Below, piece by piece: positions 1 to 14,335 of a DNA stretch of 64,000 nucleotides; position 1 is the stretch's first letter; each line of letters starts with the position of its first letter. Position numbers and translations under genes: made by a program. The notes below the pieces were generated by a model that saw only the letters and a program-made list of their open reading frames with translations, was not told the DNA's origin and made no database searches. The DNA comes from Flavobacterium sp. IMCC34852 (GTDB lineage Bacteria > Bacteroidota > Bacteroidia > Flavobacteriales > Flavobacteriaceae): NCBI RefSeq assembly GCF_030643905.1, contig NZ_CP121446.1, positions 2,958,001 through 3,022,000 on the forward strand, in the 5' to 3' direction.

Positions 1-1
1 A

Positions 2-61
2 GCTCCAGCCATAATACTTTATGCTACTAAAACAAATGAGCATCTGAAAGAGAATAAATAG
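2..61 (+). CDS. C-terminal end of a cassette gene, cut by the window edge
   Basis: A reading frame is open from the window start and ends at a TAG at 59-61, encoding the last 19 residues (ending LKENK). It sits about 40 bases before attC1, the spacing seen for other cassette genes. Function cannot be judged from so short a tail. Confidence 0.5.
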   Translation, partial: APAIILYATKTNEHLKENK

Positions 62-100
62 AAATGAAAACGAAACGGCCAAGAGGAATAAAAAGCCAGC

Positions 101-234
101 TTATAACAGCCGTTATCCGCTATAGCTGGTTTTTTCTTGAGTTGTGCTTCTTTCTTCACGAAAATATTTTATCTTAGCAGACAGTACGCAGTTCGCTGGA
201 TTCGCTACAGTCGGATAGCGGCGAAACGTTATAA
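101..234 (+). repeat. attC1 (loop class III)
   Basis: The 5' box TTATAAC and 3' box GTTATAA flank arms GTTATCCG and CGGATAGC, which are complementary but for a G-T wobble. The loop contains TATCTTAG. It closes the truncated left-edge cassette. Confidence 0.85.
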
Positions 235-676
235 CTCAGTTTTCCCTTATTCTACAACTGAAGTTTTAAGCTAGAAAAAATCCAAAAAAGTTTGCTTGAA
301 AAATGAAATCGAAAATTAAGTAGTAGAAAAAAATATGACAAACTTTTGACGTAGAAAAAGTTAGTGTTGAGAAAATTTAGCGTTTAAAAGTTGTGTAAAA
401 ATATTTTACTTAAAAAAAATTCACACCAAAAGTGTGTGAAAAATATTTTTAAAAAAAAAACCACACAGAATTATAAAAAAAAATGAAAAGGAGAAGCCGA
501 AGTTGAAACTGGCAAAGATTGAGTGCTCAAGTTGGTAGGAAAACCGAAGTTATAACAGCAGTTTGTGATAATGGCTGGTTTTAGTTTTTATCAGAAAAGT
601 TCTCGCTAATTGAAATTTTAATTATATTTGGAATGGTAAGTGATTGAAACACGCCACTATCACAAGCCGCAGAACG
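229..676 (+). mobile_element. Gene-less cassette, copy 1 (448 bp)
   Basis: This is a complete cassette between attC1 and attC2 with no plausible gene: the ATGs present open frames of only 4-7 codons. It contains two tandem A/T-rich units, each bounded by GTGTG and CACAC arms, at about 386-472. It is nearly identical to 2061-2508 and 6832-7278, differing here by a few substitutions and A/T-run changes. It could carry a small RNA, a promoter or protein-binding sites; nothing in the sequence decides which. Confidence 0.8.
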
Positions 677-682
677 TTACCG
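550..682 (+). repeat. attC2 (loop class I)
   Basis: The 5' box TTATAAC matches the start of its own gene-less cassette and the 3' box is GTTACCG. Arms are GCAGTTTGTGATAATGGC and GCCACTATCACAAGCCGC. The loop contains TATATTTG, a perfect TAnnTTTG. Confidence 0.88.
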
Positions 683-707
683 GCAAGCTCACAAAAATAT
701 CTTAAAA

Positions 708-1262
708 ATGTGCCAATATAACTTTCTAATATTAGAAAATAATGCTCTCGAAAATGTAATTATAGAAGTTGGAAAAGCCTCTAATTTTCGGTTTCAAAAT
801 GTATTGACAAAATTTTCAATTCCTAATCTACATTCTTATGTAACTGATCTTAGTGAAGATAATTGCAATTGTGGTTCTGTAATTGGTTGCCGTGAATGGA
901 AAGAAGAAGAGAAATTTAACATAGAAAAAGAAAAAAAGAAACTCGAAAGAAAAAGATACTCCAATAACCGCATCGAGCGATTACTAATTCAGAAACAAGA
1001 ACAGCTAAATTTGAGAAAAACTCAAACTGAAAACTCTGAATATAAAGAAGCTGACAAATGGATTAAATTTTTCCATGACTTGAAAAAAGAAAAGTTGGAA
1101 AATAAAGTTGGTTTAATTTTTCATCATTACTGTAGTCAAGTTTCAGAGGAACTTGTGAAAATAGAGGAAGATAATTTAGACGTAGAAAAATTAACAATAG
1201 AAACTTTGAAAAGTATGGTGGAAAACAAATTATACTGGATAAATTATAAAGCCAGCCGGTAA
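708..1262 (+). CDS. Cassette gene: 184-residue cytosolic protein of unknown function
   Basis: The product has no signal peptide or membrane segment. Residues about 1-50 look globular, followed by a short cysteine cluster (NCNCG then GC, about residues 53-62). A long Lys/Glu-rich stretch (about 65-130) is likely a helical coiled coil. I do not recognise the family. The start ATG lies 25 bp after the preceding attC ends. The TAA stop is formed by the CGGTAAC box of attC3, so the cassette boundary supplies the stop codon. The cassette begins GTTACCGGC and its attC begins with the exact reverse complement. Confidence 0.7.
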   Translation: MCQYNFLILENNALENVIIEVGKASNFRFQNVLTKFSIPNLHSYVTDLSEDNCNCGSVIGCREWKEEEKFNIEKEKKKLERKRYSNNRIERLLIQKQEQLNLRKTQTENSEYKEADKWIKFFHDLKKEKLENKVGLIFHHYCSQVSEELVKIEEDNLDVEKLTIETLKSMVENKLYWINYKASR

Positions 1263-1389
1263 CAGCCGTTAACCGCTATTGCTGGATTTTAGTGGTTTCA
1301 CGTCTGTTTTTCACGTAAAACTATTATCTTAGCAGACAGTACGCAGTTCGCTGGCTTCGCAACAGTCGGTTAGCGGCGAAACGTTACCA
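1257..1389 (+). repeat. attC3 (loop class III)
   Basis: Boxes are CGGTAAC and GTTACCA. Arms GTTAACCG and CGGTTAGC pair, with one extra T on the 3' side next to the arm, comparable to the extrahelical base of classical attC sites. The loop contains TATCTTAG. Confidence 0.88.
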
Positions 1390-1426
1390 GTAATACTTCA
1401 GCAACTCACCGGAAAATAGAACCTAA

Positions 1427-1918
1427 ATGGAAGAAAAAAAGTCGAATAAACTCTGGATTGGTTCAACAATCATATTACTAATTTTCATTTATTTTATCCC
1501 AAAAGAAATAGCATATCCAAAATATAAATATTTGGTTTGGTTTGTCTTTATTCTAATTTTCGGAGTTGTACCCTATTTTGTTTACAACATAATAAAAAGA
1601 TCAAATCAAAATTTCAGCTCAATTAAAGTGAAAGGGATTTGTGCTTTATCAATTTTGATTGTCGGTCCAACATATGCAATATTTCAAAACTACCGAGAAA
1701 ACGAAGCGCTAAGAATTAATGGAAAGGTGACAGAATGCATCGTAGTTGACAGAAAAAAATCGAAAAATGATTGGCTCATAAACTGTAAATATCTCGTAAA
1801 AAATTCTGAGTTTATGACTTATTATCACATAGACGAAAAAGGCAATTTTCAAATTGGAGATACACTGAAGTTGATATACAATGAAGAATTCCCAAGAATG
1901 TACAAAATAGATTTTTAA
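1427..1918 (+). CDS. Cassette gene: small membrane protein, DUF3592-like
   Basis: This 163-residue protein has three hydrophobic segments (about 10-25, 35-55 and 68-86). A soluble domain follows with the pattern NGKVTECIVVDRK ... IGDTLKLIYN, resembling the C-terminal beta domain of DUF3592-type membrane proteins. That similarity is by eye. The function is unknown and the location is probably the inner membrane. It is the only gene of its cassette, and its cassette start (GTTACCAGT) matches the box of attC4. Confidence 0.7.
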   Translation: MEEKKSNKLWIGSTIILLIFIYFIPKEIAYPKYKYLVWFVFILIFGVVPYFVYNIIKRSNQNFSSIKVKGICALSILIVGPTYAIFQNYRENEALRINGKVTECIVVDRKKSKNDWLINCKYLVKNSEFMTYYHIDEKGNFQIGDTLKLIYNEEFPRMYKIDF

Positions 1919-1932
1919 ACTAAAAGTACTAC

Positions 1933-2066
1933 TGGTAACAGCAGTTTGTGATAATTGCTTGACTTGGGATTATCCCGAGTTTTCTCTGAAAACTCAAAAG
2001 GAATTTTATATTTGTAATCATCAGTAATAAATCGTCGCAACTATCACAATCTGCGGCACGTTATAA
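1933..2066 (+). repeat. attC4 (loop class II)
   Basis: Boxes are TGGTAAC and GTTATAA. Arms TTTGTGATAATTGC and GCAACTATCACAAT pair. The loop has an inner hairpin GAGTTTTC / GAAAACTC and the motif TATATTTG. Confidence 0.87.
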
Positions 2067-2508
2067 CTCAGTTTTCCCTTATTCTACAACTGAAGTTTTA
2101 AGCTAGAAAAAATCCAAAAAAGTTTGCTTGAAAAATGAAATCGAAAATTAAGTAGTAGAAAAAAATATGACAAACTTTTGACGTAGAAAAAGTTAGTGTT
2201 GAGAAAATTTAGCGTTTAAAAGTTGTGTGAAAATATTTTACTTAAAAAAAATTCACACCAAAAGTGTGTGAAAAATATTTTTTTAAAAAAAACCACACAG
2301 AATTATAAAAAAAAATGAAAAGGAGAAGCCGAAGTTGAAACTGGCAAAGATTGAGTGCTCAAGTTGGTAGGAAAACCGAAGTTATAACAGCAGTTTGTGA
2401 TAATGGCTGGTTTTAGTTTTTATCAGAAAAGTTCTCCCTAATTGAAATTTTAATTATATTTGGAATGGTAAGTGATTGAAACACGCCACTATCACAAGCC
2501 GCAGAACG
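2061..2508 (+). mobile_element. Gene-less cassette, copy 2 (448 bp)
   Basis: This is the second copy of the gene-less cassette, including its attC. The hairpin TTCACAC / GTGTGAA is at 2252-2272. Two tandem GTGTG...CACAC units span about 2225-2300. As in the other copies, no reading frame exceeds a few codons. Confidence 0.82.
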
Positions 2509-2514
2509 TTAGTG
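2382..2514 (+). repeat. attC5 (loop class I)
   Basis: Boxes are TTATAAC and GTTAGTG. It is almost identical to attC2 and attC13 because all three belong to copies of the same cassette. The loop contains TATATTTG. Confidence 0.88.
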
Positions 2515-2548
2515 GCAACCTTCACAGAAATCGCTTAAAAAAGACATT

Positions 2549-2854
2549 ATGCACAGAGTTTTTGAATACATAATGGAAATTATTGGATGGCTTCAAATTG
2601 TTGCTTCGCCGCTTTTAATTGGTTTAGGAATTGCAGCATTTATATATTTTCCAAATCCAACCGAAATAAGACTGATTATTGCGATTATTGTTGCTTTATT
2701 GGGCTTATTTATCGGAATAGTTTGGGCAAACAGAATATGGAAGACTAAAGGAACGATGTGGTTTGTTTCTCAAGTTAGCGCAACACCAGACTTGGACAAT
2801 TTGACTGGAAAAGAAACTGGAAAAGAAACTGGAAGTGAAACTGAAAAAAAATAA
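2549..2854 (+). CDS. Cassette gene: small two-helix membrane protein
   Basis: This 101-residue protein has two strong membrane segments (about 10-33 and 40-60). A short soluble tail ends in a repetitive GKET GKET GSET stretch encoded by a threefold 12-base repeat, which suggests slippage in the 3' end. I do not recognise the family. It is alone in its cassette; the stop lies about 10 bases before attC6. Confidence 0.65.
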   Translation: MHRVFEYIMEIIGWLQIVASPLLIGLGIAAFIYFPNPTEIRLIIAIIVALLGLFIGIVWANRIWKTKGTMWFVSQVSATPDLDNLTGKETGKETGSETEKK

Positions 2855-2861
2855 AGGCAGC

Positions 2862-2992
2862 CACTAACAGCGGTTTGTGGCAATTGCGAGTTTTCTGCTA
2901 AATTCAAGTTTCCTTTTCGCAAAATTTTTATCTTTAACAGAAAATAAGCGGTTACGAAGTTCGCAACTTCCACAAGCCGCGGAACGTTAGTG
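2862..2992 (+). repeat. attC6 (loop class IV)
   Basis: Boxes are CACTAAC and GTTAGTG. Arms GCGGTTTGTGG and CCACAAGCCGC pair. The loop contains TATCTTTA, one mismatch from TAnnTTTG. Confidence 0.86.
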
Positions 2993-3026
2993 GTAATGGC
3001 TCAACACCGATTTAAAAAGAACGAAA

Positions 3027-3653
3027 TTGCAAAGATTTAACATATTCATAAAATCGAAAAAGTTTAATTGGACAATTAACAGCCTAATATTTCTTTTATT
3101 TGTTATAGGATTTATTACATGGCGTATCAATGAGAACTTTCCCGATTCAAAATATTATATGTACATCGATAAATCACTAATGTATATTTTTCTCTTTATG
3201 TTTTTCGGCGGTACTTTTTATAAGTTTTCGAAGATTCATAGACCGGAAAAATTGCACGGGAAATTAGAAGGCTTTTTAGAATTCAAATCTAACTCTATAA
3301 TTATAGATAAAGATGAATATCTATTAGATGAAATCGAAAAAATCGAAATAGTAAATAATGATTATTACGGAAAATCAACCGGAAGTTCGAGAGGTTTCGA
3401 CTCCAATTTTTCTAATGGTGTTGACAACCGTTTAATTTTGATTTTAAAAAACAAACAGCGAATTCAATGTATGTTTGAGCTTTATTATGAATATGACATG
3501 GGCAAAGTTGATGATATATTAATTAACTATTATCTAGCTGGAAAATTAAATTTTGATCAATTATTGAAAATATTTAAAGTTAAAGGCAAAGAGGAAATTG
3601 AAGACTTCAAACAATCGATTGAAAACGCCACTACCACTAACAGCAGTTTGTGA
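3027..3653 (+). CDS. Cassette gene: membrane protein with PH-like domain
   Basis: This 208-residue frame starts at a TTG, with no better ATG upstream of the first membrane segment. Two hydrophobic helices (about 17-33 and 48-63) precede a beta-rich domain (about 75-165, with LEFKSNSIIIDKDEYLLDEI) resembling bacterial PH-like domains. The tail reads into attC7: the last residues (TTTNSSL) are encoded by the 5' box and arm, and the stop is the TGA of the arm TTTGTGA. Function is unknown. Confidence 0.6.
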   Translation: MQRFNIFIKSKKFNWTINSLIFLLFVIGFITWRINENFPDSKYYMYIDKSLMYIFLFMFFGGTFYKFSKIHRPEKLHGKLEGFLEFKSNSIIIDKDEYLLDEIEKIEIVNNDYYGKSTGSSRGFDSNFSNGVDNRLILILKNKQRIQCMFELYYEYDMGKVDDILINYYLAGKLNFDQLLKIFKVKGKEEIEDFKQSIENATTTNSSL

Positions 3654-3766
3654 TTATGGCTGGTTTTGGTTGTGGCAGAAATGTCTCGGCTGACTGAAAT
3701 TTTAGTTATATTTGGAAACGCAAGTGAGTGAAGAACGCCAAAATCACAAGCTGCGGAACGTTATAA
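3635..3766 (+). repeat. attC7 (loop class I)
   Basis: Boxes are CACTAAC and GTTATAA. Arms are TTTGTGATTATGGC and GCCAAAATCACAAG. The loop carries TATATTTG. The upstream gene is translated into the 5' arm. Confidence 0.87.
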
Positions 3767-3791
3767 GCCATTTCCAGAACGCATAAGAATC

Positions 3792-4196
3792 ATGACAACC
3801 AATTTTAAGATTATCGACAATTACGCATTGAAATTTAACGACAGATTAATTGACGTCCATAACAATTTTGATTTTGTGGGTTTCGATTACCGTGTAGCAG
3901 AAAATCAACTGAAATTGTTTTGCCGAAAAAGTTTTGGAGTTTGGGTAAATAAAGAAGAACCAGAACAGATAATTTTAGTTCATAATAATGTAAATAATTT
4001 AGTAGTTGAAAATCAAAGTGGAAATCGCGAAGATTCGCTGACCGAAATAACATTTTACCAAAATGATGAACCAAGGAAACCTGAGGAGTTAACATTGAGA
4101 GAAAAGCCAAATGAGAACGACGATATTTTCTATATTTTTGAAAGTGGCAAAGTAATTCGAATTGGTTGCGGTGAAATTTTTCTGGAAGTATATTGA
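3792..4196 (+). CDS. Cassette gene: 134-residue beta-rich protein of unknown function
   Basis: The product has no signal peptide or helix-rich region. It alternates short hydrophobic strands (FKIIDNYALKF, FVGFDYRV, IILVHNNVNNLVVEN, VIRIGCGEIFLEV), suggesting a compact beta fold. It is recognised neither as an enzyme nor with confidence as an immunity protein, although size and composition would fit one. It is the sole gene of its cassette, with its stop 14 bases before attC8. Confidence 0.62.
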   Translation: MTTNFKIIDNYALKFNDRLIDVHNNFDFVGFDYRVAENQLKLFCRKSFGVWVNKEEPEQIILVHNNVNNLVVENQSGNREDSLTEITFYQNDEPRKPEELTLREKPNENDDIFYIFESGKVIRIGCGEIFLEVY

Positions 4197-4210
4197 AGTT
4201 AAGAAACAGC

Positions 4211-4345
4211 TTATAACAGCAGTTTGTAACTACTGCGTGGCTTGGGCTTAACCCCGATTTCCTAGCGGAAATCAAAAAGTTGTTTTATCTTTGGAATCAT
4301 CAGTAATAAATCATCGCAGCAGTTACAAGCTGCGGAACGTTACCA
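4211..4345 (+). repeat. attC8 (loop class II)
   Basis: Boxes are TTATAAC and GTTACCA. Arms TTTGTAACTACTGCG and CGCAGCAGTTACAAG pair except for one A-C mismatch. The loop contains TATCTTTG. Confidence 0.88.
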
Positions 4346-4373
4346 GCAAGCTTACTCAATATTGCGAAAAGAC

Positions 4374-4781
4374 ATGAATAAGACAAAACTATATAATGTG
4401 GAATTTATAAACGAATTTGAAGGCGGAATTATTGAAAAAATAGCTTTAACAAGCGAAGCGGAATGGATTTTTAGTTTTATAAACACTTATAAAGATATTT
4501 GCGATGTAGAAATATTAATCGAAGATATTGATAACGCACTTAATGGAAGAAACATAAAAAATACTGATATAAGCACAAATGATGAAATTGTATTTTTAAG
4601 TAAAGATGGAATTGAATTTTGGGATGAAGAAGGTAAAAAAATGATAGCCGTTTATCCACTAATGGACTTTAAAGAACGATTACTTATTTGGAGAAACTTT
4701 TTAAAAACTCCACCGTTTCATGAAAAAAAAATAAATAAGTTAGAATTGATTTGGCTAACTATAAAAAGTAAATTTTGCTGA
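4374..4781 (+). CDS. Cassette gene: 135-residue acidic protein of unknown function
   Basis: The start is the ATG at 4374; a TTG four codons upstream is possible. The protein is soluble, with many Asp/Glu/Ile residues (DVEILIEDIDNAL, IEFWDEEGKKM) and a basic C-terminal helix. There is no signal peptide and no family is recognised. The cassette start GTTACCAGC is the reverse complement of the attC9 5' box and flank. Confidence 0.62.
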   Translation: MNKTKLYNVEFINEFEGGIIEKIALTSEAEWIFSFINTYKDICDVEILIEDIDNALNGRNIKNTDISTNDEIVFLSKDGIEFWDEEGKKMIAVYPLMDFKERLLIWRNFLKTPPFHEKKINKLELIWLTIKSKFC

Positions 4782-4799
4782 AATAAGCATAAAGCCAGC

Positions 4800-4932
4800 T
4801 GGTAACAGCCGTTTCTCGCAATTGCGAATTTTGTGGTAAGTTCACGTTTACGTTTCGCAAGAATTTTTATCTTTAACAGAAAATAATCGGTTCCGAAGTT
4901 CGCAACTGACGAGAAGCGGCGGAACGTTATGC
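4800..4932 (+). repeat. attC9 (loop class IV)
   Basis: Boxes are TGGTAAC and GTTATGC. Arms GTTTCTCG and CGAGAAGC pair. The loop has TATCTTTA. Confidence 0.86.
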
Positions 4933-4950
4933 TCAATATTTAAACACCTT

Positions 4951-5325
4951 ATGAGAATATCGATAACATTTTTTTTTCTGCTTCTTTGTGGAATATTACA
5001 TTCCCAAGAAAAGAAAATTTCATGGTCAATAAGAACATGTGAAAGTGGAATGGAAAAAGCGGCCAAAGATTTTAGCCAAGGTTATTACTATTGTGAATCT
5101 TTTGGTTTAAAAGCAGAATTCGACACAGAGTTTACAAAGTTCTACGACAATTACATTAAAACCAAATATGGGATTATTTATGGTAATGGAGGTTGTATTG
5201 TAGATGATTTCAGAAAATGTTATTCAGAAAAAATGGAAAATCTAATCGTTGAAAAGTTTGGAAAGGATATATTTGAAAGGGCATTGAAAGAAGCGAAAGA
5301 CCTATATTACGAAAAAAAATACTGA
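4951..5325 (+). CDS. Cassette gene: small secreted cysteine-containing protein
   Basis: This 124-residue protein has an N-terminal signal peptide (core ITFFFLLLCGILHS, cleavage near SQEK, so probably type I rather than lipoprotein). The mature part has four cysteines (TCES, YYCES, GGCIV, KCYSE) that could form two disulfides in the periplasm. The C-terminal part is charged and helical. The family is not recognised. The stop overlaps the start of attC10. Confidence 0.65.
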   Translation: MRISITFFFLLLCGILHSQEKKISWSIRTCESGMEKAAKDFSQGYYYCESFGLKAEFDTEFTKFYDNYIKTKYGIIYGNGGCIVDDFRKCYSEKMENLIVEKFGKDIFERALKEAKDLYYEKKY

Positions 5326-5460
5326 GCATAACAGCAGTTTGTAGCAATTGCTAGGCTTGGGTTATTCCCGAATTTTCTCCGAAAATTCAAAAAGTAATTT
5401 TAACTTTGGTATCATCAGTAATTAATCATCGCAACTGTTACAAGCTGCGGAACGTTAGCA
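5326..5460 (+). repeat. attC10 (loop class II)
   Basis: Boxes are GCATAAC and GTTAGCA. Arms TTTGTAGCAATTGC and GCAACTGTTACAAG pair imperfectly. An internal hairpin GAATTTTC / GAAAATTC and TAACTTTG are in the loop. Confidence 0.86.
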
Positions 5461-5500
5461 GTAATTGCCACAACTTTAAGGTAAAAACAACCACTTATCA

Positions 5501-5806
5501 ATGAAAAAATATCACATTTCGATATTCATTAGTTTAGTATCTATAATCGGTATAATTTATCAGAATTACAGAATTGCCCAAATCTTTAATGAATCAAGAG
5601 GTAAAAACAGAGCGCTTTTCGGAATTACAGAACTTACCCGATTGGACGTGAAATTGTATCTCGGATTAGCTTTAATTGTAAGTTTCATATTTGGAATATT
5701 GTCAATCAGAAAAAGAGAAGACTTTTACTTTTCAATTTTATCGGTTGTTTTGAGTTTTATTGGAATCAACTTACTGTTTATAAAAGTGTGGACGTGGATG
5801 ATTTAG
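5501..5806 (+). CDS. Cassette gene: small three-helix membrane protein
   Basis: This 101-residue protein has hydrophobic helices at about 5-22, 50-68 and 78-98. The first loop is basic and polar (NESRGKNRALFG). There are no catalytic motifs and no recognised family. The stop lies within 10 bases of attC11. Confidence 0.6.
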   Translation: MKKYHISIFISLVSIIGIIYQNYRIAQIFNESRGKNRALFGITELTRLDVKLYLGLALIVSFIFGILSIRKREDFYFSILSVVLSFIGINLLFIKVWTWMI

Positions 5807-5813
5807 CAACTAC

Positions 5814-5947
5814 TGCTAACAGCAGTTTGTAACTACTGCGCGCTTGGGCTTGTCCCGAATTTTCTTCGAAAATTCAAAAAGTAGTTTTATATTTGGAATC
5901 AACAGTAATAAATCATCGCAGCAGTTACAAGCTGCGGAACGTTATCG
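5814..5947 (+). repeat. attC11 (loop class II)
   Basis: Boxes are TGCTAAC and GTTATCG. Arms TTTGTAACTACTGCG and CGCAGCAGTTACAAG. The inner hairpin GAATTTTC / GAAAATTC is followed by TATATTTG. Confidence 0.88.
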
Positions 5948-5956
5948 CCAATATTC

Positions 5957-6697
5957 ATGACGAAAGCATTAAAAATAACATTTTTCTTTTTGTTGCCGCT
6001 AATTGTTAGTGGTCAATACGCTTTTGAAAAATATCCAGCCGTAAAGTTTAAGGCTTACAACAATTGGAAAATTAATGACACAAAAGATAAAGTAGAATTT
6101 TCACAAACCATTTCAAGCTTTTATAAAAATGGAGAATCTTTGACTATTCAATTGACTTCATTCAAAGAGCATTGGTTTGAAAACTCAATAATCAAGGTTT
6201 CTAAAAAAGATGTGGAAATCAAACAGTTCAAGGAAAATATGGGATTTAATCCAATCGCCATAGACACAATCAGAGTTGCGGACATTAATGGAGATGGATT
6301 GAAAGATTTAAAGATTATTGCTCCATACATGGGAAACGGAACGGCTTCTATGAATGTGAAAGTTATTTATCTTTTTCAACAAGCAAACCAAGGCTTCATA
6401 AAAATCTCATTTGATGATAAACAATATGAGAATCGCATTGAAAGAGATTTAAATGGTGATGGAAATTATGAAATTATAACTATGCAATTGTTAAGTTATC
6501 AAAATCATAGTTATTGGAATTTTAATCTTTTTAACTTCGTAAGTGGTAAATTAGTAAATGTAAATGAAAAGCATAATTATCCGATTTTAGTTCAGTTTCT
6601 TGAAAAGGAAAATTATAAAATTACTGGGAAAATTAGTCGCAAAAAAATGAAAAGTTTTGCGCTAAAGTTGCCGGAAGCTTATGATGTGAAAAAGTAA
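5957..6697 (+). CDS. Cassette gene: secreted protein with two DxNGDG calcium-type loops
   Basis: This 246-residue protein has a signal peptide (KITFFFLLPLIVSG, cleavage before QYAF). Two loops of the type seen in VCBS/FG-GAP and EF-hand-like repeats are visible: DINGDGLKD (about residue 110) and DLNGDGNYE (about 165). They suggest a calcium-stabilised beta-propeller-like or repeat fold. No enzymatic motif is seen. It is one of the larger cassette proteins and probably acts in the periplasm or outside the cell. Only 9 bases separate its ATG from the end of attC11. Confidence 0.68.
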   Translation: MTKALKITFFFLLPLIVSGQYAFEKYPAVKFKAYNNWKINDTKDKVEFSQTISSFYKNGESLTIQLTSFKEHWFENSIIKVSKKDVEIKQFKENMGFNPIAIDTIRVADINGDGLKDLKIIAPYMGNGTASMNVKVIYLFQQANQGFIKISFDDKQYENRIERDLNGDGNYEIITMQLLSYQNHSYWNFNLFNFVSGKLVNVNEKHNYPILVQFLEKENYKITGKISRKKMKSFALKLPEAYDVKK

Positions 6698-6705
6698 AAT
6701 ACTGG

Positions 6706-6837
6706 CGATAACAGCAGTTTGTGATTATGGCTAGTTTTGGGTTTATCAGAAATGTCTCGGCTGACTGAAATTTTAGTTATATTTGGAAACGCAAGTGATT
6801 GAGGAACGCCACAATCACAATCTGCGGCACGTTATAA
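6706..6837 (+). repeat. attC12 (loop class I)
   Basis: Boxes are CGATAAC and GTTATAA. The 5' arm is TTTGTGATTATGGC and the 3' arm GCCACAATCACAAT. The loop contains TATATTTG. Confidence 0.87.
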
Positions 6838-7278: not shown

Positions 7279-7284
7279 TTATAG
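7152..7284 (+). repeat. attC13 (loop class I)
   Basis: Boxes are TTATAAC and GTTATAG. It is near-identical to attC2 and attC5. The loop contains TATATTTG. Confidence 0.88.
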
Positions 7285-7308
7285 GCAAGGGCAACCTACT
7301 TTACAACT

Positions 7309-8025: not shown

Positions 8026-8037
8026 AAAAGCCCAAGC

Positions 8038-8171
8038 CTATAACAGCGGCTATCAGCTATTGCTGGTTTTTCTTGAGTTTTACTTCTTTCTTCACGTAAA
8101 ATATTTTATCTTAGCAGACAGTACGCAGTTCGTTGGCGTCGCAACAGACCGATAGCCGCGAAACGTTATAC
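8038..8171 (+). repeat. attC14 (loop class III)
   Basis: Boxes are CTATAAC and GTTATAC. Arms GCGGCTATC and GATAGCCGC pair perfectly. The loop contains TATCTTAG. Confidence 0.86.
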
Positions 8172-8189
8172 GCAACCATCACACGACCT

Positions 8190-8585
8190 ATGAGAAAAAC
8201 ACAATTTTTCAAAGAAATCTTAATATTAATTTGCATTTTGACAATATCCGCATGTAAATCAAATCTTGACCAACAATTTTCTTTGGAAAATGAAAGGATA
8301 AAGGAAGAATTCACAACAGAATCTCAAAAGTTTGTTGAACAAAATAGAGAAAAACTCTCTGAAAAGGAAATGCTCAAATCATTAGATAGTATCACTGAGG
8401 AATATATTATTAATAAAAATAAAAAGCTAGCGGTTAAGTTTATAAAATCCGAAAGCGGTGTTAAAAGATTGAATCTCCTGAAGAAGTATTTTACCAAAGA
8501 AGAAATAAAAGTTTTATTGAAAAAAGTACCTGAAAAAATAAAAGCAGACACTAATTATGTCGCTTTGAAAAAGTATTGCAGATAA
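8190..8585 (+). CDS. Cassette gene: small helical lipoprotein
   Basis: This 131-residue lipoprotein has the signal core FFKEILILICILTIS and a lipobox ISAC. The mature protein is strongly charged and probably all-helical (long Lys/Glu runs such as EQNREKLSEKEM). The frame is open further upstream into attC14, but the ATG at 8190 is chosen because it places the signal peptide at the N-terminus. Function is unknown. Confidence 0.66.
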   Translation: MRKTQFFKEILILICILTISACKSNLDQQFSLENERIKEEFTTESQKFVEQNREKLSEKEMLKSLDSITEEYIINKNKKLAVKFIKSESGVKRLNLLKKYFTKEEIKVLLKKVPEKIKADTNYVALKKYCR

Positions 8586-8600
8586 AAATTTAATGGCAGC

Positions 8601-8734
8601 GTATAACAGCAGTTTGTAACCACTGCGCGCTTGGGCTTGCCCCGAATTTTCTACGAAAATTCAAAAAGGAGTTTTATCTTTGGAATCATCAGTAATAAAT
8701 CATCGCAGCAGTTACAAGCTGCTGAACGTTATAC
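8601..8734 (+). repeat. attC15 (loop class II)
   Basis: Boxes are GTATAAC and GTTATAC, which are perfectly complementary. Arms TTTGTAACCACTGCG and CGCAGCAGTTACAAG. The loop contains TATCTTTG. Confidence 0.87.
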
Positions 8735-8774
8735 GCCATTTCCCAATGTTGCTCAAAAGAAAAAGTAATATATT

Positions 8775-9149
8775 ATGACAATAGTTCAAGAGCTTAAGAA
8801 ACCAAATATCAACAAGAAACCTGACTTCACAACAGGTAGTATTCTGAATAATTGTTTTAAATTTAATTGCATAAAATGTGAATCCGAACTAGAATTAAAC
8901 CTTGAAAATCAAATTAAAAACTTGTGGCTTGGAAAAACTGAAAATATAAATGTTGAAGAAGAAATTGAAGCAAAAACATTTTACAGAATTGGACAGTTTC
9001 GAAAAGCTACTGATGGCGGATTAGCAGTATTTGACAAAATAAAATGTGAAAAATGTAAAGCAGAATATGTAACATATTGTGGCGTCAATGAATTTAGTAA
9101 TTCAGCATATAATGTTATTGTTCAAGGAATAGCATTGATTGAAGAATAA
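8775..9149 (+). CDS. Cassette gene: small zinc-ribbon-like protein
   Basis: This 124-residue soluble protein has two CxxC knuckles, NCIKCES (about residues 34-37) and KCEKCKAEY (about 92-96), plus a further Cys (YCGV). The pattern suggests a zinc ribbon formed around an insert of about 55 residues. No DNA-binding or enzymatic motif is evident and no family is recognised. It is alone in its cassette. Confidence 0.64.
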   Translation: MTIVQELKKPNINKKPDFTTGSILNNCFKFNCIKCESELELNLENQIKNLWLGKTENINVEEEIEAKTFYRIGQFRKATDGGLAVFDKIKCEKCKAEYVTYCGVNEFSNSAYNVIVQGIALIEE

Positions 9150-9155
9150 AACGGC

Positions 9156-9287
9156 GTATAACAGCAGTTTGTGATTATGGCTGGTTTTGGTCGTATCAGA
9201 AATGTCTCGGCTGATTGAAATTTTAGTTATATTTGAAAACGCTAGTGAGTGAAGAACGCCACAATCACAAGCTGCGGAACGTTAGCG
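9156..9287 (+). repeat. attC16 (loop class I)
   Basis: Boxes are GTATAAC and GTTAGCG. Arms TTTGTGATTATGGC and GCCACAATCACAAG. The loop contains TATATTTG. Confidence 0.88.
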
Positions 9288-9321
9288 GTAATTTGCCACA
9301 AAATATCTCAAATTAGAACAA

Positions 9322-9678
9322 ATGAGCAAGTCATCAAAATTTAATAGTCAACGCATTTATAGAATTTGGATGTATACAGTTAGTCATTCAACCTTAATAC
9401 TTAGAAGTGAAAAACAATATTTTGACGTAGATTATGCGTTCAAATATGATGAACCAGATTTAACTATTGATGTAATTTTTAATGGCGTAGATTTTATATC
9501 AATACCTGATAGTTTTAATGAGATAGAAATTAAAAAGGAAGGTGAAAAATTCATTTTCAACAATAATGAAAATTGGTATGTTAAGGCTGCTAATTGTATT
9601 GTTGGCCAATATGACGGTGATGATGAAGATAAAATTTGGGAAATGAGTTTAAAATATAACGAGACAATAGAGTTATAG
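9322..9678 (+). CDS. Cassette gene: 118-residue soluble protein of unknown function
   Basis: The product has no signal peptide. An N-terminal segment RIYRIWMYTVSHSTLILRS is followed by a YFDVDYAFKYDEPDLTIDVIF region, and the pattern suggests a small alpha/beta or beta-barrel domain with an acidic C-terminus. Small barrel-type immunity proteins have this size and character, but the sequence gives no firm match. The stop lies nine bases before attC17. Confidence 0.6.
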   Translation: MSKSSKFNSQRIYRIWMYTVSHSTLILRSEKQYFDVDYAFKYDEPDLTIDVIFNGVDFISIPDSFNEIEIKKEGEKFIFNNNENWYVKAANCIVGQYDGDDEDKIWEMSLKYNETIEL

Positions 9679-9686
9679 CAAACTAC

Positions 9687-9821
9687 CGCTAACAGCAGTT
9701 TGCAACAATTGCAAGGTTTAGGCTTTCACCGAATTTTCTCCGAAAATTCAAAGCCAAGTTTTGTACTTGGAATCATCAGTAATAAATCGTCGCAGCTGTT
9801 GCAAGCCGCGGCACGTTATGC
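9687..9821 (+). repeat. attC17 (loop class II)
   Basis: Boxes are CGCTAAC and GTTATGC. Arms TTTGCAACAATTGC and GCAGCTGTTGCAAG pair imperfectly. Unlike most sites its loop lacks a TAnnTTTG match (TGTACTTG). Confidence 0.86.
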
Positions 9822-9838
9822 ACTATTTCAGAATTAAT

Positions 9839-10189
9839 ATGCTAAAAGAGAAAATACTTTATGTTGATGAAATTGTTCTGAAAAGAATCGAATCAAATTT
9901 CGAATTGATTGAGAAAAGTGGTTGGTATAAACTTTATCAAAACAAAGTGGATAAATCATTTTGGCGGCTTGATGAACCGGAAAAATATGACTTGCAAATG
10001 TTTGTTAAACTTGAATCGGTGGAAAATTGGACGGATTATAATGACCAAGATTTAAGAATTGAGCTTTTGAAAGAACATAGAGGTTTATCAAGTGAAAAAT
10101 GTAAATGGAAAGATTGCAGCAAAAAGGCTTTAAATAATCTTGTGTTTTGTGAATTTCACGCATATAAAGAAATGGGAATTAGACGGTGA
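9839..10189 (+). CDS. Cassette gene: 116-residue protein with C-terminal Cys/His cluster
   Basis: The frame extends upstream through the 3' half of attC17, but the ATG at 9839 (or 9818, at the cassette boundary) is a more sensible start. The C-terminus has CKWKDC and VFCEFHAYKE, a Cys4/His-like cluster that could bind zinc. The rest is charged and helical with several Trp residues. There is no signal peptide and no recognised family. Confidence 0.6.
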   Translation: MLKEKILYVDEIVLKRIESNFELIEKSGWYKLYQNKVDKSFWRLDEPEKYDLQMFVKLESVENWTDYNDQDLRIELLKEHRGLSSEKCKWKDCSKKALNNLVFCEFHAYKEMGIRR

Positions 10190-10207
10190 TAATGGAATAA
10201 AAACAGT

Positions 10208-10342
10208 GCATAACAGCAGTTTGTAACAATTGCGAGGCTTGGGATTATCCCGAATTTTCTTCGAAAATTCAAAAAGTAATTTTAACTTTGGTATCATCAG
10301 TAATTAATCATCGCAACTGTTACAAGCTGCGGAACGTTAGCA
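10208..10342 (+). repeat. attC18 (loop class II)
   Basis: Boxes are GCATAAC and GTTAGCA. Arms TTTGTAACAATTGCG and CGCAACTGTTACAAG. The inner hairpin GAATTTTC / GAAAATTC precedes TAACTTTG. Confidence 0.87.
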
Positions 10343-10368
10343 GCAACCTCATACAACATATCAATTCA

Positions 10369-10950
10369 ATGAGAAAAGAAATTTATTTAATATTATTTGT
10401 TGCTTTTTTTAGTTGCCAACCAAAAGAAAAAAGCGAATTGGTTGCTGATGATAAAATATACAGTTTAATTAATTTCGTAGCCGAAACAGAATTAGAATCA
10501 TCGCAAAATGGTCACGCAGGTTATCTAACCGAAGGTTTCTCCATACTTTTAAATCCTGGCCAAGATGAGTATTTTAGAATGAACGAACTAGATTCAATTT
10601 TCAAAAAGGAAGACATAGTTTTCATTCACAAGCAAATTGATAAACGAATGAATTTTAGACTGAAAAGTGATTTATTAAATACACAAAAAATCATACCAAT
10701 CGATTCTATTCAACATCTAAAGCAAAAAGGTGATTCAAATGATAAATTTTGGGAGCGTTTTGAAAAAAAATATAAAACTCACGGTTTTAGTTCTATTGAT
10801 ATGCCACTATTCTGTGTTGATGGAAAAACTGCAGTAGTCACTTATGGTTTTCATTGTGGTAGCTTGTGTGGTGGTGGTGAAACTGCAATTTTTCAACTAT
10901 TGAATGGAAAATGGAAAAAAATAATGACTTTATCAAGTTGGGTGAGTTAA
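10369..10950 (+). CDS. Cassette gene: 193-residue lipoprotein
   Basis: A short signal peptide (EIYLILFVAFF) ends in a lipobox FFSC. The mature part ends in a Gly/Cys-rich module (YGFHCGSLCGGGETAIF) followed by a beta hairpin and Trp, a pattern I associate with uncharacterised flavobacterial lipoproteins. The two cysteines there may form a disulfide. The frame runs upstream into attC18, but lipobox placement fixes the start at 10369. Confidence 0.68.
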   Translation: MRKEIYLILFVAFFSCQPKEKSELVADDKIYSLINFVAETELESSQNGHAGYLTEGFSILLNPGQDEYFRMNELDSIFKKEDIVFIHKQIDKRMNFRLKSDLLNTQKIIPIDSIQHLKQKGDSNDKFWERFEKKYKTHGFSSIDMPLFCVDGKTAVVTYGFHCGSLCGGGETAIFQLLNGKWKKIMTLSSWVS

Positions 10951-10963
10951 AATTAAAGGCAGC

Positions 10964-11095
10964 TGCTAACAGCAGTTTGTGATTATGGCTGGTTTTGGGT
11001 TTATCAGAAATGTCTCGGCTGACTGAAATTTTAGTTATATTTGAAAACGCCAGTGAGTGAAGAACGCCACAATCACAATCTGCGGCACGTTAGCG
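10964..11095 (+). repeat. attC19 (loop class I)
   Basis: Boxes are TGCTAAC and GTTAGCG. Arms TTTGTGATTATGGC and GCCACAATCACAAT. The loop contains TATATTTG. Confidence 0.87.
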
Positions 11096-11139
11096 GCAAG
11101 GCTTGCTAAGCAATTCATAGAATTCTAATCCTTTTTTAC

Positions 11140-11502
11140 ATGAAAAGAATATTTTTAGCCCTTTTAACTTGTTTTCTTTTAAGCTGTTCTTCTCAGAAAA
11201 AAATTACTGAAAACAGTATAAAAACACACACTTTTTTATTGCAAGATAAAGACAAATCAAAATTTGAACTTGTTGAAGCAATAAAAGAGGCTTATAGCGA
11301 AGGTAGTTTTATAAATTCTCCAATAGTTGCAATAGACGGAATAGTATTTAAATACGATAAAAGCCAAGATACAATTGTTTTGCCATTAAAGAAGATGGAC
11401 ATAACGAACATTGTATATCTAAATAAACAAAGTAGTCCGGCTATTTATGGAAAGAGAGAAACTAACGGTGCAATTATAATAAATACAATAAATTTAAAAT
11501 AA
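11140..11502 (+). CDS. Cassette gene: mini-lipoprotein with TonB-receptor plug-like domain
   Basis: This 120-residue lipoprotein has the signal core RIFLALLTCFLLS and a lipobox LLSC. The mature part carries landmarks of the plug domain of SusC-like TonB receptors: a VAIDGIVF strand in place of the usual VDG motif, then PAIYGKRETNGAIIINT, matching the YGxRGxNGVIxITT signature. No barrel follows. It is a free-standing plug-like protein tethered to a membrane. Similarity is by motif; the role is unknown. Confidence 0.7.
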   Translation: MKRIFLALLTCFLLSCSSQKKITENSIKTHTFLLQDKDKSKFELVEAIKEAYSEGSFINSPIVAIDGIVFKYDKSQDTIVLPLKKMDITNIVYLNKQSSPAIYGKRETNGAIIINTINLK

Positions 11503-11510
11503 CGCCCAGC

Positions 11511-11645
11511 CGCTAACAGCAGTTTGTGATAATTGCGAGGCTTGGGATTATCCCGAGTTTTCTCTGAAAACTCAAAAAGGAATTTTATATTTGTAATCAT
11601 CAGTAATAAATCATCGCAGCAGTTACAAGCTGCAGAACGTTAGTA
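11511..11645 (+). repeat. attC20 (class II, mismatched arms)
   Basis: Boxes are CGCTAAC and GTTAGTA. The 5' arm (TTTGTGATAATTGCG) is of one subtype and the 3' arm (CGCAGCAGTTACAAG) of another, leaving several mismatches. This suggests a hybrid site. The loop contains TATATTTG. Confidence 0.84.
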
Positions 11646-11663
11646 GCCATTACAAAACCCAGC

Positions 11664-12149
11664 ATGAAAAGACAACTTATATTTTATCTATTGACTTTTG
11701 TTTTTCTTAGTTGTGGTGTAAAAGAAACTGAAAATTTTGAAACTCAAAATGAGAAATTTGAAATTCCGCCACCAGAAAAAAAAATTGATCCAAATAACTT
11801 GATTGGATTTGCTTGCTATTATTCCGGAAAAAAATCAAATCCTGTCAAATTGTTTTCTAAACTAATCGTTGATAAAAATTACTCAGAAATCAGAAAGAGA
11901 CTTGAAGACAAAAAACCTGCCATAAAATACTTAGCTATAATTGTGTGCAAAAAGTTAGAAGAAAAAGGAAAAGTCCAACTCAGTGAAAGAGAACAAAATC
12001 TAATTAATATAAATACCAAAAGTTCAGAAAAGATTACAATCTGTTCAGGCTGTACAAATGAAGAAGAATTAAGTATTGAAGAAATGTTTACAGAAAGTAA
12101 CTTTTTAAAAAAACAAACAGAAAGTTGGATGAATGAAATTCTAAAGTAA
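11664..12149 (+). CDS. Cassette gene: 161-residue lipoprotein
   Basis: A signal peptide (QLIFYLLTFVFLS) ends in lipobox FLSC. A proline-rich linker (EIPPPEKK) precedes a helical domain with scattered cysteines, including ICSGCT near residue 134, which could bind metal or form a disulfide. No family is recognised. It begins 19 bases after attC20. Confidence 0.66.
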   Translation: MKRQLIFYLLTFVFLSCGVKETENFETQNEKFEIPPPEKKIDPNNLIGFACYYSGKKSNPVKLFSKLIVDKNYSEIRKRLEDKKPAIKYLAIIVCKKLEEKGKVQLSEREQNLININTKSSEKITICSGCTNEEELSIEEMFTESNFLKKQTESWMNEILK

Positions 12150-12153
12150 CGGC

Positions 12154-12286
12154 TACTAACAGCGGTTTCGCGCTATTGCTGGTTTTTCTTGAATTGAACT
12201 TCTTTCTTCACGAAAATATTTTATCTTAGCAGAAAGTACGCAGTTCGCTGGAATCGCAACAGACGCGAAGCCGCGAAACGTTAGTG
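12154..12286 (+). repeat. attC21 (loop class III)
   Basis: Boxes are TACTAAC and GTTAGTG. Arms GCGGTTTCGCG and CGCGAAGCCGC are nearly perfect complements. It is almost identical to attC23, including the bases that follow it. The loop contains TATCTTAG. Confidence 0.88.
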
Positions 12287-12328
12287 GCTATTTTAGAACG
12301 ACACTGCAAAAAGACAACAATTAGAATA

Positions 12329-13180
12329 ATGAAGATAATAATTATGTTGACATTTATACTAGGCCTTTTTGGTTGTAACAACTCAAAATCACAATCAAAC
12401 AAAATTCCATTAGAAAAAATTGAAGAAATGTTTTCTAATATGAAAGCAAGCGGAGTTAACATCGAGACGAAAATGCTTTGGGGTTATTTCTTTACTTCAA
12501 ACAAAAAAGACAAATTCGACCAAGTTGCTAACGACCTAAAAAATAAAGGTTTTGATTTTGTTGAAATATTTCAAGCAGAAGACAAAAGTTATTGGTTGCA
12601 TTTGGAACGCAAAGAAATTCATAACCCAAAAAGTTTGTATGCACTTGACGAAGAACTTTATGTAATAGCAGACAAATATGAAATCACTTATGACGGTTTT
12701 GATGTTGGGAATATTGACAAAAACAAAGCAATAGAAAGAGATACGTATGCAGTTCCAGAAGAATTTAAGACACTTGACTATCAAAAAGACGATTTCCCTT
12801 GTTTACTAATTGGTAATGTTGCTTTTGACAATTTTCCACATAAAGAAGAATTTTGCTATTTCATAAAAGTAACAACATCATATAAGAAAGACGAAAAAGT
12901 TATGTTGCCAACTGACGTCGAACTTGACGAGTTAGACAAGTTTGAGTATTTTATTGAGAACAATTTGACACAAAACGAAATTAAAAACTATTACATTTTT
13001 CGGGACACACATAAAGGAATTAGAAACTTTTATATAGTAACTAACGACAAACTTGGTGCGACAGAAGTAATCAATCTCATAAAAAATTCTGAAAAACAAA
13101 GAACATTTGACTTTGAAATTTTGACTGACAAAAATTGGAACTTATACAATGAGTTTAGAAAGAAAATGCCAAATGAATAG
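12329..13180 (+). CDS. Cassette gene: lipoprotein with RraB-like and DUF695-like domains
   Basis: This 283-residue protein has a lipobox (LFGC). Residues about 45-125 match the RraB (RNase E inhibitor) pattern: MLWGYFFTSN, then GFDFVEI, YWLHLERKEIHNPKSL and YEITYDGFDVG. The remainder (about 130-283) has DUF695-like features: FPCLLIGNVAF, LPTDVELDELDKFE and a terminal WNLYNEF. RraB is a cytosolic RNase E regulator in proteobacteria, so a copy behind a lipidation signal most likely uses the fold for another role. The start is set by the signal peptide; the frame opens earlier, inside attC21. Confidence 0.72.
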   Translation: MKIIIMLTFILGLFGCNNSKSQSNKIPLEKIEEMFSNMKASGVNIETKMLWGYFFTSNKKDKFDQVANDLKNKGFDFVEIFQAEDKSYWLHLERKEIHNPKSLYALDEELYVIADKYEITYDGFDVGNIDKNKAIERDTYAVPEEFKTLDYQKDDFPCLLIGNVAFDNFPHKEEFCYFIKVTTSYKKDEKVMLPTDVELDELDKFEYFIENNLTQNEIKNYYIFRDTHKGIRNFYIVTNDKLGATEVINLIKNSEKQRTFDFEILTDKNWNLYNEFRKKMPNE

Positions 13181-13187
13181 AAACAGC

Positions 13188-13321
13188 CACTAACAGCAGT
13201 TTGTAACTACTGCGCGCTTGGGCTTGCTCCGAATTTTCTCTGAAAATTCAAAAAGTAATTTTAACTTTGGAATCATCAGTAATAAATCGTCGCAACTGTC
13301 ACAAGCTGCAAGACGTTGGCA
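13188..13321 (+). repeat. attC22 (class II, mismatched arms)
   Basis: Boxes are CACTAAC and GTTGGCA, the only 3' box here with GTTG. The 5' arm TTTGTAACTACTGCG and 3' arm CGCAACTGTCACAAG come from different subtypes. The loop contains TAACTTTG. Confidence 0.83.
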
Positions 13322-13342
13322 GTAATTATAAAACCCCTGAAA

Positions 13343-14074
13343 ATGAAGAACATTTCACTCCTGATAATAATTATTTTTAATTTCAATGCATTTTGTCAGA
13401 ACAATTTAAAAATAGAAATTGACAATCCAGAACCTAGAGTTGGAGAAAGTGTTCTGTTTTCCATAAATATTGACTTTTTAAAAGACAACATTCAAGAAAA
13501 ATTAGGCTCAGAAATAGAATTGACACGTTCTACTTCTGTTCACGGTATGCAATCCGATAATTTTGAAAGAGTAATAGTATTCAACAAAGTTGGATTAAAT
13601 AAAGTTGGTCCTTTTGAATTTGAATTTAACGGAAAAAAATATATAACAAACCAAATTGAAATTAATGTTCAGCCGAAAATTGTTCTCGAGGAAAATTTAA
13701 TAGTTAGAATTGCTGAACTTAAAGGTGAAAAATATATTATCATTGAACAATTAGTTAAAAATATCGCAAAAACAGAACGAAATGAATTTGGCGAAATGAC
13801 TACATATTTAGGAGGTCTAGCTCCTGATAATTTTGAATTTGCAAAGCTAAATGAAGAAATAAAAAGAAGTATCGAATTTGACGACTTTAATTCTTCAAGT
13901 GAAACTTTGATGCCTGAAAATTCTAAATATGGAGAAGTTGGATTTTCATATTCAAAAATTAGATATAGAATAAATTTTAGTAATGACTCTGATAATGAAT
14001 ATATACTCACTGAAAAAGACTTCATAAACTTGCCAAAAAATTATAAGCTAAAACCAATAATCATAAAAAAATAA
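13343..14074 (+). CDS. Cassette gene: secreted protein with BatD-like N-terminal domain
   Basis: This 243-residue protein has a signal peptide (NISLLIIIIFNFNAFC, before QNN). The first domain has the layout of the BatD oxygen-tolerance N-terminal beta domain: PEPRVGESVLFSI, then VGPFEFEFNGKKY and IEINV. The second half is acidic with no motif I know. BatD similarity is by pattern and weak; the function is unknown. The cassette start GTTGGCAGT and the attC23 box TGCCAAC are complementary even though GTTG is unusual, which supports that this is one circular unit. Confidence 0.62.
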   Translation: MKNISLLIIIIFNFNAFCQNNLKIEIDNPEPRVGESVLFSINIDFLKDNIQEKLGSEIELTRSTSVHGMQSDNFERVIVFNKVGLNKVGPFEFEFNGKKYITNQIEINVQPKIVLEENLIVRIAELKGEKYIIIEQLVKNIAKTERNEFGEMTTYLGGLAPDNFEFAKLNEEIKRSIEFDDFNSSSETLMPENSKYGEVGFSYSKIRYRINFSNDSDNEYILTEKDFINLPKNYKLKPIIIKK

Positions 14075-14078
14075 CTAC

Positions 14079-14211
14079 TGCCAACAGCGGTTTCGCGCTA
14101 TTGCTAGTTTTTCTTGAATTGAACTTCTTTCTTCACGGAAATATTTTATCTTAGCAGAAAGTACGCAGTTCGCTGGAATCGCAACAGACGCGAAGCCGCG
14201 AAACGTTAGTG
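14079..14211 (+). repeat. attC23 (loop class III), last intact site
   Basis: Boxes are TGCCAAC and GTTAGTG. Arms GCGGTTTCGCG and CGCGAAGCCGC. It is near-identical to attC21. It is the last well-preserved site of the array. Confidence 0.86.
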
Positions 14212-14335
14212 GCTATTATTTCGCCGGTTCAATAATCTAACGCAACTTTAAAGAAATTTATAAGTTTGTTATTGTGAAAAATAAAACTGAATTACTCTGA
14301 AAGAACGTATTGAAATTGAAAAATAAACTTCCCTA

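Follow-up and report, generated by a model that had tools for sequence, protein, structure and literature searches.

Can a long array of integron-like gene cassettes be built by a recombinase that lacks the insert typical of integron integrases (IntI)? The question is raised by a 64-kb stretch of the chromosome of Flavobacterium sp. IMCC34852 (C1:2958001–3022000, C1 being the chromosome contig; hereafter the window), for which a preliminary description had proposed an integron-like cassette array at positions 1–14211. The genome is a single 3.17-Mb contig, and its assignment to Flavobacterium follows its kinship and the names of its relatives. The cassette ends are self-complementary, entire units are duplicated within the array, one cassette is shared with another species and the arms of the sites covary, which together indicate that the array works as an integron; it is not an IntI integron, since a test for the defining insert showed it to be absent. 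As judged from sequence, the locus is very probably an integron that works or did so until recently, with a tyrosine recombinase devoid of the IntI insert as its integrase (see also PMC2426708 and PMC8618304).

Cassette array and attC-like sites

A regular-expression census located 54 AAC..GTT sites, with cores of 121–128 nt, at C1:2937417–2972205. They delimit 54 cassettes in an array of 35 kb, co-oriented with a recombinase gene at its head, 21 kb to the left of the window; the first cassette begins 104 nt past the recombinase stop codon. The window contains 23 of the 54 sites and 22 complete cassettes on the + strand (c33–c54), in agreement with the counts of the preliminary description, and the census found no AAC..GTT site in window positions 14501–64000. 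A covariance model (R2), derived from 27 sites situated to the left of the window, recovered exactly these 23 sites in the 64 kb (E ≤ 2.3e-17), with no other match there at E ≤ 0.01; since five of the 23 are exact copies of left-hand sites, the test is independent for 18. A search of window positions 1–16000 against Rfam gave no match at E ≤ 1.

A broader model (R3), built from 88 sites of many species, added one eroded site with a decayed right core (window 15671–15807, + strand, E 3.9e-7), downstream of a chromate transporter gene (14336–15646, + strand) that may have been carried by a 55th, now eroded cassette. Contrary to the limits first proposed, the array begins 21 kb left of the window, and its right end is probably not at 14211.

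Genome-wide, R2 identified 71 sites, 54 in the array and 17 elsewhere. The outlying sites (C1:1730918–1746577, 1976491–1977376 and 2038839–2041316, all − strand; 2402594, + strand; 2223416, − strand; loci L198–L202) resemble attC clusters without an integrase; 13 of the 17 form two clusters on the strand opposite to the array.

Cassette units and their movement

The cassette unit runs from the TT after the G of one site through the G of the next. The start of a cassette complements its own end over 9–10 nt in 54 of 54 cases, as compared with 46 of 2822 mismatched pairings that reach 9 nt or more; within a site, where neighbouring cassettes meet, the mean complementarity is 4.8 nt. These self-complementary ends suggest that the units were formerly circles. 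Open reading frames (ORFs) of at least 70 residues are found on the + strand in 47 of the 54 cassettes and on the − strand in none, and seven cassettes have none.

Sixteen near-identical cassette pairs (97.7–100%) were detected within the array. Identical cassettes are c03 and c48 (534 nt), c07 and c31 (642 nt), c22 and c42 (487 nt), c30 and c49 (521 nt), and c04, c23 and c44 (447 nt). In the exact duplicates, identity spans the whole unit and ceases 3–10 nt beyond its edges, in or near the CG^TTA core. Cassette c02 (594 nt, with a 91-residue ORF that is membrane-like by eye) is identical over 594/594 nt to the third of seven cassettes at locus L155 of another species, the two integrases being 65% identical. 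F. denitrificans (locus L056, cassette 1, at attI) and Pelobium manganitolerans (locus L088, cassette 9) share a cassette of 1437 nt at 93% identity. It encodes a protein with MerT and heavy-metal domains, and a further ORF resembles, by eye, an ArsR-type regulator; identical copies are also present in the arrays of L149 and L150, and a 99.6% copy in that of L055. The two hosts belong to the Flavobacteriaceae and Sphingobacteriaceae, families of different orders. At the level of sequence comparison, these cases show that cassettes have moved as whole units with G^TT junctions, both within the array and between species. The cassette-sized identity with breaks at G^TT that had been put forward as a check on the integron-like reading is therefore present, and that reading is strengthened.

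The recombinase

The array is headed by a tyrosine recombinase of 347 residues (C1:2935777–2936820, + strand), in which Tyr329 is invariant. It scores just above the cut-off of NF040815 (XerA), labelled by NCBI as 'site-specific tyrosine recombinase/integron integrase', and at 209.4 bits lies below the cut-off of 265 for the IntI model TIGR02249, which no protein of the genome reaches. The KGxKxR and HxLRH motifs are 59 residues apart; in canonical IntI the distance is 100, and two Xer-like proteins encoded by the same genome have 64 and 66. Among rows in which both motifs were found, the modal spacing is 59 in the family of this recombinase (16 of 21), 58 in a second group (14 of 15) and 100 in canonical IntI (19 of 20); by this comparison of motif spacing with canonical IntI, the IntI-specific insert with its I2 helix is absent. 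The expectation of an IntI-like recombinase to the left of the window was accordingly borne out in part: a tyrosine recombinase stands at the array head and recurs in relatives, but it falls below the IntI cut-off and has no insert. In the tree, IntI (100/100) and the insert-less family (98/99) each form a clade. The placement of IntI among the groups is unsure, and the separation of the family, second group and IntI from XerC/D is weakly supported (88/71).

The recombinase begins with a domain of ~65 residues, predicted to consist of two strands, a helix, two strands and a helix. A domain profile search found it in the family and in 12 of 15 second-group proteins, and did not find it in IntI or in Xer-like proteins. 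The XerA chain in PDB 5hxy aligns to residues 68–340 only, with the N-terminal domain outside. Pfam has no match for the recombinase's own domain, and among 28 members the commonest weak match is DUF5710 (nine members, best E 0.016). Foldseek ranked the HARP domain of SMARCAL1 first, but at E 0.32; VIA placed XPB among tied ranks, and HARP itself (PF07443) gave no match to the recombinase at E ≤ 10. A HARP-like N-terminus, first guessed from the residue pattern, is a lead only. The predicted domain arrangement was left unused because the structure model has a predicted template-modelling score (pTM) of 0.50. PF22823, a label given to many homologues in the protein database, was rejected for the recombinase; it denotes a family of catalytic domains (MrpR_C_cat) for which the genome contains no match.

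Longer insert-less recombinases of 552–584 residues, with an enlarged N-terminus and a very short attI region, head arrays of their own at loci L223–L226. The profile finds one clear copy of the N-terminal domain in three of these four variants (E 5e-8 to 6e-8); a second copy in the same three appears only at E 0.1–0.3, and the fourth shows nothing clear. More than one copy in these variants is a reading by eye.

The attI-like region

An attI-like stretch lies between the recombinase stop codon and the first cassette. Among 99 distinct relative loci, 54 have an attI-like end by motif; the GTT is situated 67–104 nt past the integrase stop, and at 99–102 nt in 35 of 57 loci with the motif. By eye, many loci display two palindromic units flanking a CACCCAAAnTTTGGGTG-like palindrome, followed by TATAnACWA^GTT. 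The attI letters vary by species, and the mean folding energy is −11.7, versus −5.4 in shuffles. Ahead of the GTT is TAnnTTTG, which we take to be the −7 promoter element of Bacteroidota: it occurs on the array strand no more than 45 nt past the integrase stop in 57 of 99 loci and on the other strand in five, with a mean of 2.4 and a maximum of 8 of 99 loci in shuffles. In the 552–584-residue variants the GTT is only 36–45 nt past the stop, with the same kind of box ahead of it. A putative promoter adjoining attI (Pc) would drive the newest cassettes.

TAnnTTTG promoters inside the attC-like sites were also considered and rejected, the relatives (11 of 115) doing no better than shuffles (maximum 12). 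The motif is present in 26 of 46 distinct sites of the array, 53 nt before the GTT, on the + strand and never on the −; no promoter is claimed there because the array sites fall into few families and the relatives match shuffles. At L021 and L229, a long inverted repeat of the AAAATCGCCC...GGGACGATTTT type is found directly behind attI, where the first cassette would be expected.

Sites as folded structures

For 87 distinct sites, drawn from the array and 28 other loci, 90.2% of the cells in 16 pairs are standard base pairs. Double-change cells number 397, versus 113 in shuffles and at most 105 in slid structures, and the covariation score is 0.735 versus 0.163; the shuffled controls do not remove relatedness and the slid controls keep it. 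The arms are thus shown, by comparison of the aligned sites, to be kept complementary while their letters change. Most spacers measure 1 or 0 nt on the left side and 5 or 4 nt on the right, an asymmetry of the same sense as in canonical sites. Where the two strands differ, the bottom strand forms the more stable fold in 36 of the 45 own sites and in 136 of the 208 from relatives, sites that are not independent of each other. Sites outside 110–140 or 115–132 nt were omitted from the spacer, folding and alignment sets, L162 and L165–L168 were omitted from some site sets (L167 repeats L067, and the rest are short stretches), and alignment A5 lacks 3 of the 91 selected sites.

By analogy with IntI, the recombinase would recognise a single strand, probably the bottom one, by its folded hairpin, and would recombine cassette circles with attI, or with other sites, at G^TT. 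Without an I2 helix, the reading of structure must rest elsewhere, and the best candidate would be the recombinase's own N-terminal domain.

Relatives and their arrays

Eighty named loci were taken from at least 554 that encode a relative, and the protein database holds at least 8000 homologues. Family matches at E ≤ 1e-60 are present in 99 of 199 genomes of the genus and, across the phylum, in 100 of 395 genomes representing 62 of 170 genera, with arrays checked in a minority. Sites were chained by a detector that ignores strand, so strands were assigned from the genes and the orientation of covariance-model matches. Among 64 distinct integrase loci with at least 2.5 kb downstream, at least one chained site is found in 45, at least two in 28 and at least three in 22; 116 shuffled stretches of all lengths gave one chained site in five and two in none. 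L064, L091, L107 and L110 have no chained site from attI, yet have sites further downstream. Homologues of 37–43% identity head arrays of 18, 11, 5 and 5 sites, and 6 of 14 homologues below 47% identity showed no chained sites. Arrays with homologues are found across Flavobacterium and in other Bacteroidota.

Sites of this type occur in 181 of 199 genus genomes, some with a single match, under a model that includes sites of some genomes. With per-genome counts followed to 17, at least ten sites are present in 68 of 99 genomes with the integrase versus 38 of 100 without a strong homologue (p 1.8e-5); across the genus genomes, integrase and sites were not found to be strictly present or absent together. 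Twelve of these 38 site-rich genomes were checked, and four have a longer insert-less recombinase heading 15, 11, 12 and 3 sites.

A Chryseobacterium plasmid (L229) carries an insert-less integrase and at least four sites, with an IS110 element and a group II intron gene between sites. Plasmids of Klebsiella and Aeromonas encode recombinases ~49% identical over residues 100–347, and by genus Acinetobacter accounts for 24 of 39 plasmid records with matches. No homologue at E ≤ 1e-60 was found in 50,697 phage records. Labels outside Bacteroidota on metagenome-assembled genomes may be binning errors.

Canonical integrons as a control

Of 395 Bacteroidota genomes, 105 encode a canonical IntI above the cut-off (of 106 with a match, one is listed under the same class and the rest only under the same phylum); integrons are not rare in this phylum, a correction to the preliminary description. 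Several genomes carry both a canonical IntI and a homologue of the insert-less family. At 14 canonical loci, the chain detector gave arrays of 5–10 sites in L186, L187, L188, L190 and L195 (1–3 in shuffles) and a marginal chain of three in L196; in each case the sites lie 5′ of intI and were taken to point away from it. Such arrays at canonical loci demonstrate that the approach detects canonical integrons.

A canonical attC model (R1) was built from 25 canonical Bacteroidota sites of five loci. On the held-out canonical array L190 it recovered 10 of 10 sites at 51–89 bits, and on further canonical loci 11 sites in four of eight loci at 21–50 bits. Among these are divergent 5′-side sites in L185 (three) and L191 (one, E 0.027) and 3′-side sites on the intI strand in L189 (two) and L193 (five); the chain detector found two of the latter kind in L184. 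L192, L194 and L197 showed no clear canonical sites by the chain detector or R1. Canonical sites therefore occur on either side of intI, and the side and direction of the array do not separate the insert-less family; a 3′-side, co-oriented array was rejected as a hallmark of that family on account of L184, L189 and L193. On family sites R1 gave 26 weak matches (16.7–24.9 bits, E 0.0043–0.42), and all 26 of its matches at E ≤ 1 outside the held-out array fall on family sites, in register. The check with an attC covariance model that the preliminary description had called for was thus answered weakly, though in the right frame.

Features of the window

The features below are all on the + strand, and each site was located by census and covariance model. 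The window opens within c32 (3′ part at 1–228, cassette start at C1:2957073), whose site 32 of 54 occupies 104–231. Cassette c33 (229–676; site 33 at 553–679) has no ORF of at least 70 residues, and neither does c36 (2061–2508; site 36 at 2385–2511) or c44 (6832–7278; site 44 at 7155–7281; identical to c04 and c23). These three, together with copies at C1:2938668 and C1:2951500, are five near-identical copies of a 447–448-nt cassette that is perhaps a regulatory or small-RNA cassette. Between c33 and c36 are c34 (677–1383, ORF 708–1262, site 34 at 1260–1386) and c35 (1384–2060, ORF 1427–1918, site 35 at 1936–2063).

From c36 to c44 the order is c37 (2509–2986, ORF 2549–2854, site 37 at 2865–2989), c38 (2987–3760, ORF 3027–3653, site 38 at 3638–3763), c39 (3761–4339, ORF 3792–4196, site 39 at 4214–4342), c40 (4340–4926, ORF 4374–4781, site 40 at 4803–4929), c41 (4927–5454, ORF 4951–5325, site 41 at 5329–5457), c42, the copy of c22 (5455–5941, ORF 5501–5806, site 42 at 5817–5944), and c43 (5942–6831, ORF 5957–6697, site 43 at 6709–6834). 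Beyond c44 follow c45 (7279–8165, ORF 7309–8025, site 45 at 8041–8168), c46 (8166–8728, ORF 8190–8585, site 46 at 8604–8731), c47 (8729–9281, ORF 8775–9149, site 47 at 9159–9284), c48, the copy of c03 (9282–9815, ORF 9322–9678, site 48 at 9690–9818), and c49, the copy of c30 (9816–10336, site 49 at 10211–10339), with a 123-residue ORF from near its 5′ end that was scanned as 9839–10189. The last five are c50 (10337–11089, ORF 10369–10950, site 50 at 10967–11092), c51 (11090–11639, ORF 11140–11502, site 51 at 11514–11642), c52 (11640–12280, ORF 11664–12149, site 52 at 12157–12283), c53 (12281–13315, ORF 12329–13180, site 53 at 13191–13318) and c54 (13316–14205, ORF 13343–14074, site 54 at 14082–14208).

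The statement that no cassette gene has a definite function was nearly right: one of the 19 scanned ORFs from complete cassettes of the window passes a Pfam cut-off, that of c53 (RraB and DUF695). By eye, many of the others open with signal-like or lipoprotein-like stretches.

Comparison with known systems

The system resembles chromosomal IntI integrons, both of the Vibrio type and canonical ones of Bacteroidota, in its one-way array, AAC/GTT hairpin sites, G^TT junctions, attI beside the integrase, asymmetric spacers and long self-complementary cassette ends (8–15 nt in canonical Bacteroidota arrays). It differs from them in an integrase without the IntI insert and with an N-terminal domain not found in IntI, in the box letters of its sites and in its attI. 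In the reverse-orientation integrons of Treponema, likened here by description only and treated as intI integrons in PMC3607928, the integrase is likewise transcribed towards attI, in the direction of the cassettes. Smyshlyaev et al. (PMC8138268) recognise an 'Integron-like' subgroup among tyrosine recombinases; it contains insert-less members, for which the text at hand describes no arrays or sites; the same paper calls the insertion essential for integron function. The I2 insert is described as a defining feature of IntI (PMC9668308), and as necessary for cassette capture and found in no other protein (PMC7790495). In the IntegronFinder 2.0 paper (PMC9024848), Salinibacter is the source of the one complete integron named for Bacteroidetes proper. 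Among the papers listed from the open-access literature, as represented by titles and abstract openings and exclusive of preprints and subscription papers, none reports arrays of this kind in Flavobacterium or an insert-less integron integrase linked to an array.

A Xer chromosome-dimer resolvase acts at one dif site and has no cassettes, and XerA is likewise a chromosome-dimer resolvase without cassettes. Here, unlike in XerA (NF040815, PDB 5hxy), an array of 54 cassettes adjoins the recombinase gene.

Alternative explanations

Several observations weigh against an insert-less integron. No chained site from attI was found in 19 of the 64 distinct relatives, and among the 100 genus genomes without a strong integrase homologue, 85 have at least one site and 38 at least ten. 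The other 8 of the 12 checked genomes have only recombinase matches of E 1e-31 to 1e-42; in one of these genomes a broken remnant lies next to the match. The preference for the bottom strand is modest, canonical sites show no strand bias in the same folding comparison (15 vs 17), and the promoter-like box in IMCC34852 itself reads TATATTAG, without a strict TAnnTTTG match. Some of these points could be accommodated by a repeat family of the miniature inverted-repeat transposable element (MITE) or retron kind, with the cassettes as by-products of homologous recombination between repeats, an explanation also consistent with the five near-identical ORF-less cassettes and with the 17 of 71 genome sites that lie outside the array. 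Homologous recombination is not expected, however, to stop at CG^TT in different site families or to provide every cassette with self-complementary ends, and the array points one way and is headed at attI; we regard this explanation as hardly credible. The outlying sites, which have no integrase, would also fit an ordinary IntI integron, or a remnant cluster of attC sites lacking an integrase (CALIN); the array would then be the work of a canonical integrase, either lost or situated elsewhere, and the recombinase beside it a bystander. Many other genomes of the phylum do have a canonical IntI, and the weak R1 scores of the 26 family sites are matched by some canonical sites that do no better (21–32 bits). 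This is nonetheless very unlikely: no protein of the genome reaches the IntI cut-off, the canonical sites of the phylum carry other box letters, and in relatives belonging to many species it is the insert-less recombinase that stands at the head of arrays, the attI layout being shared.

A different reading of the recombinase itself, improbable though by no means negligible, is that it exchanges both strands of double-stranded or cruciform sites, as in an excision system of the Xer or phage type, the hairpins being binding palindromes. The I2 helix that in IntI blocks the second strand exchange (PMC7790495) is missing here, and attI is built of palindromes with the folding energy given above. 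Against this, the arms covary even though their letters have diverged almost completely, as would suit recognition by shape; the spacers are asymmetric in the canonical sense; the bottom strand is the more stable in most own and relatives' sites, within the limits stated; and the 36–45 nt before the GTT in the 552–584-residue variants are too short for the attI palindromes. We therefore retain the insert-less integron as the preferred explanation.

Implications

Long arrays built without the I2 insert would reopen the questions of integron origins and of the way in which folded sites are recognised. It is possible, although we would not yet favour it, that the family constitutes a second class of integron in Bacteroidota, in which hairpin reading is independent of the I2 helix, one or more HARP-like, DNA-fork-binding N-terminal domains replace I2, cassettes cross families and orders, and IntI may itself have arisen inside the insert-less family. 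If IntI is nested there, cassette capture would be older than the insert. Surveys that require the I2 insert would miss integrons of this kind. Given the occurrence of the sites in most genomes of the genus and the near-identical mercury-transport cassette in Flavobacterium and Pelobium, insert-less integrons may provide environmental bacteria with an extensive, hitherto unseen route for exchanging genes.

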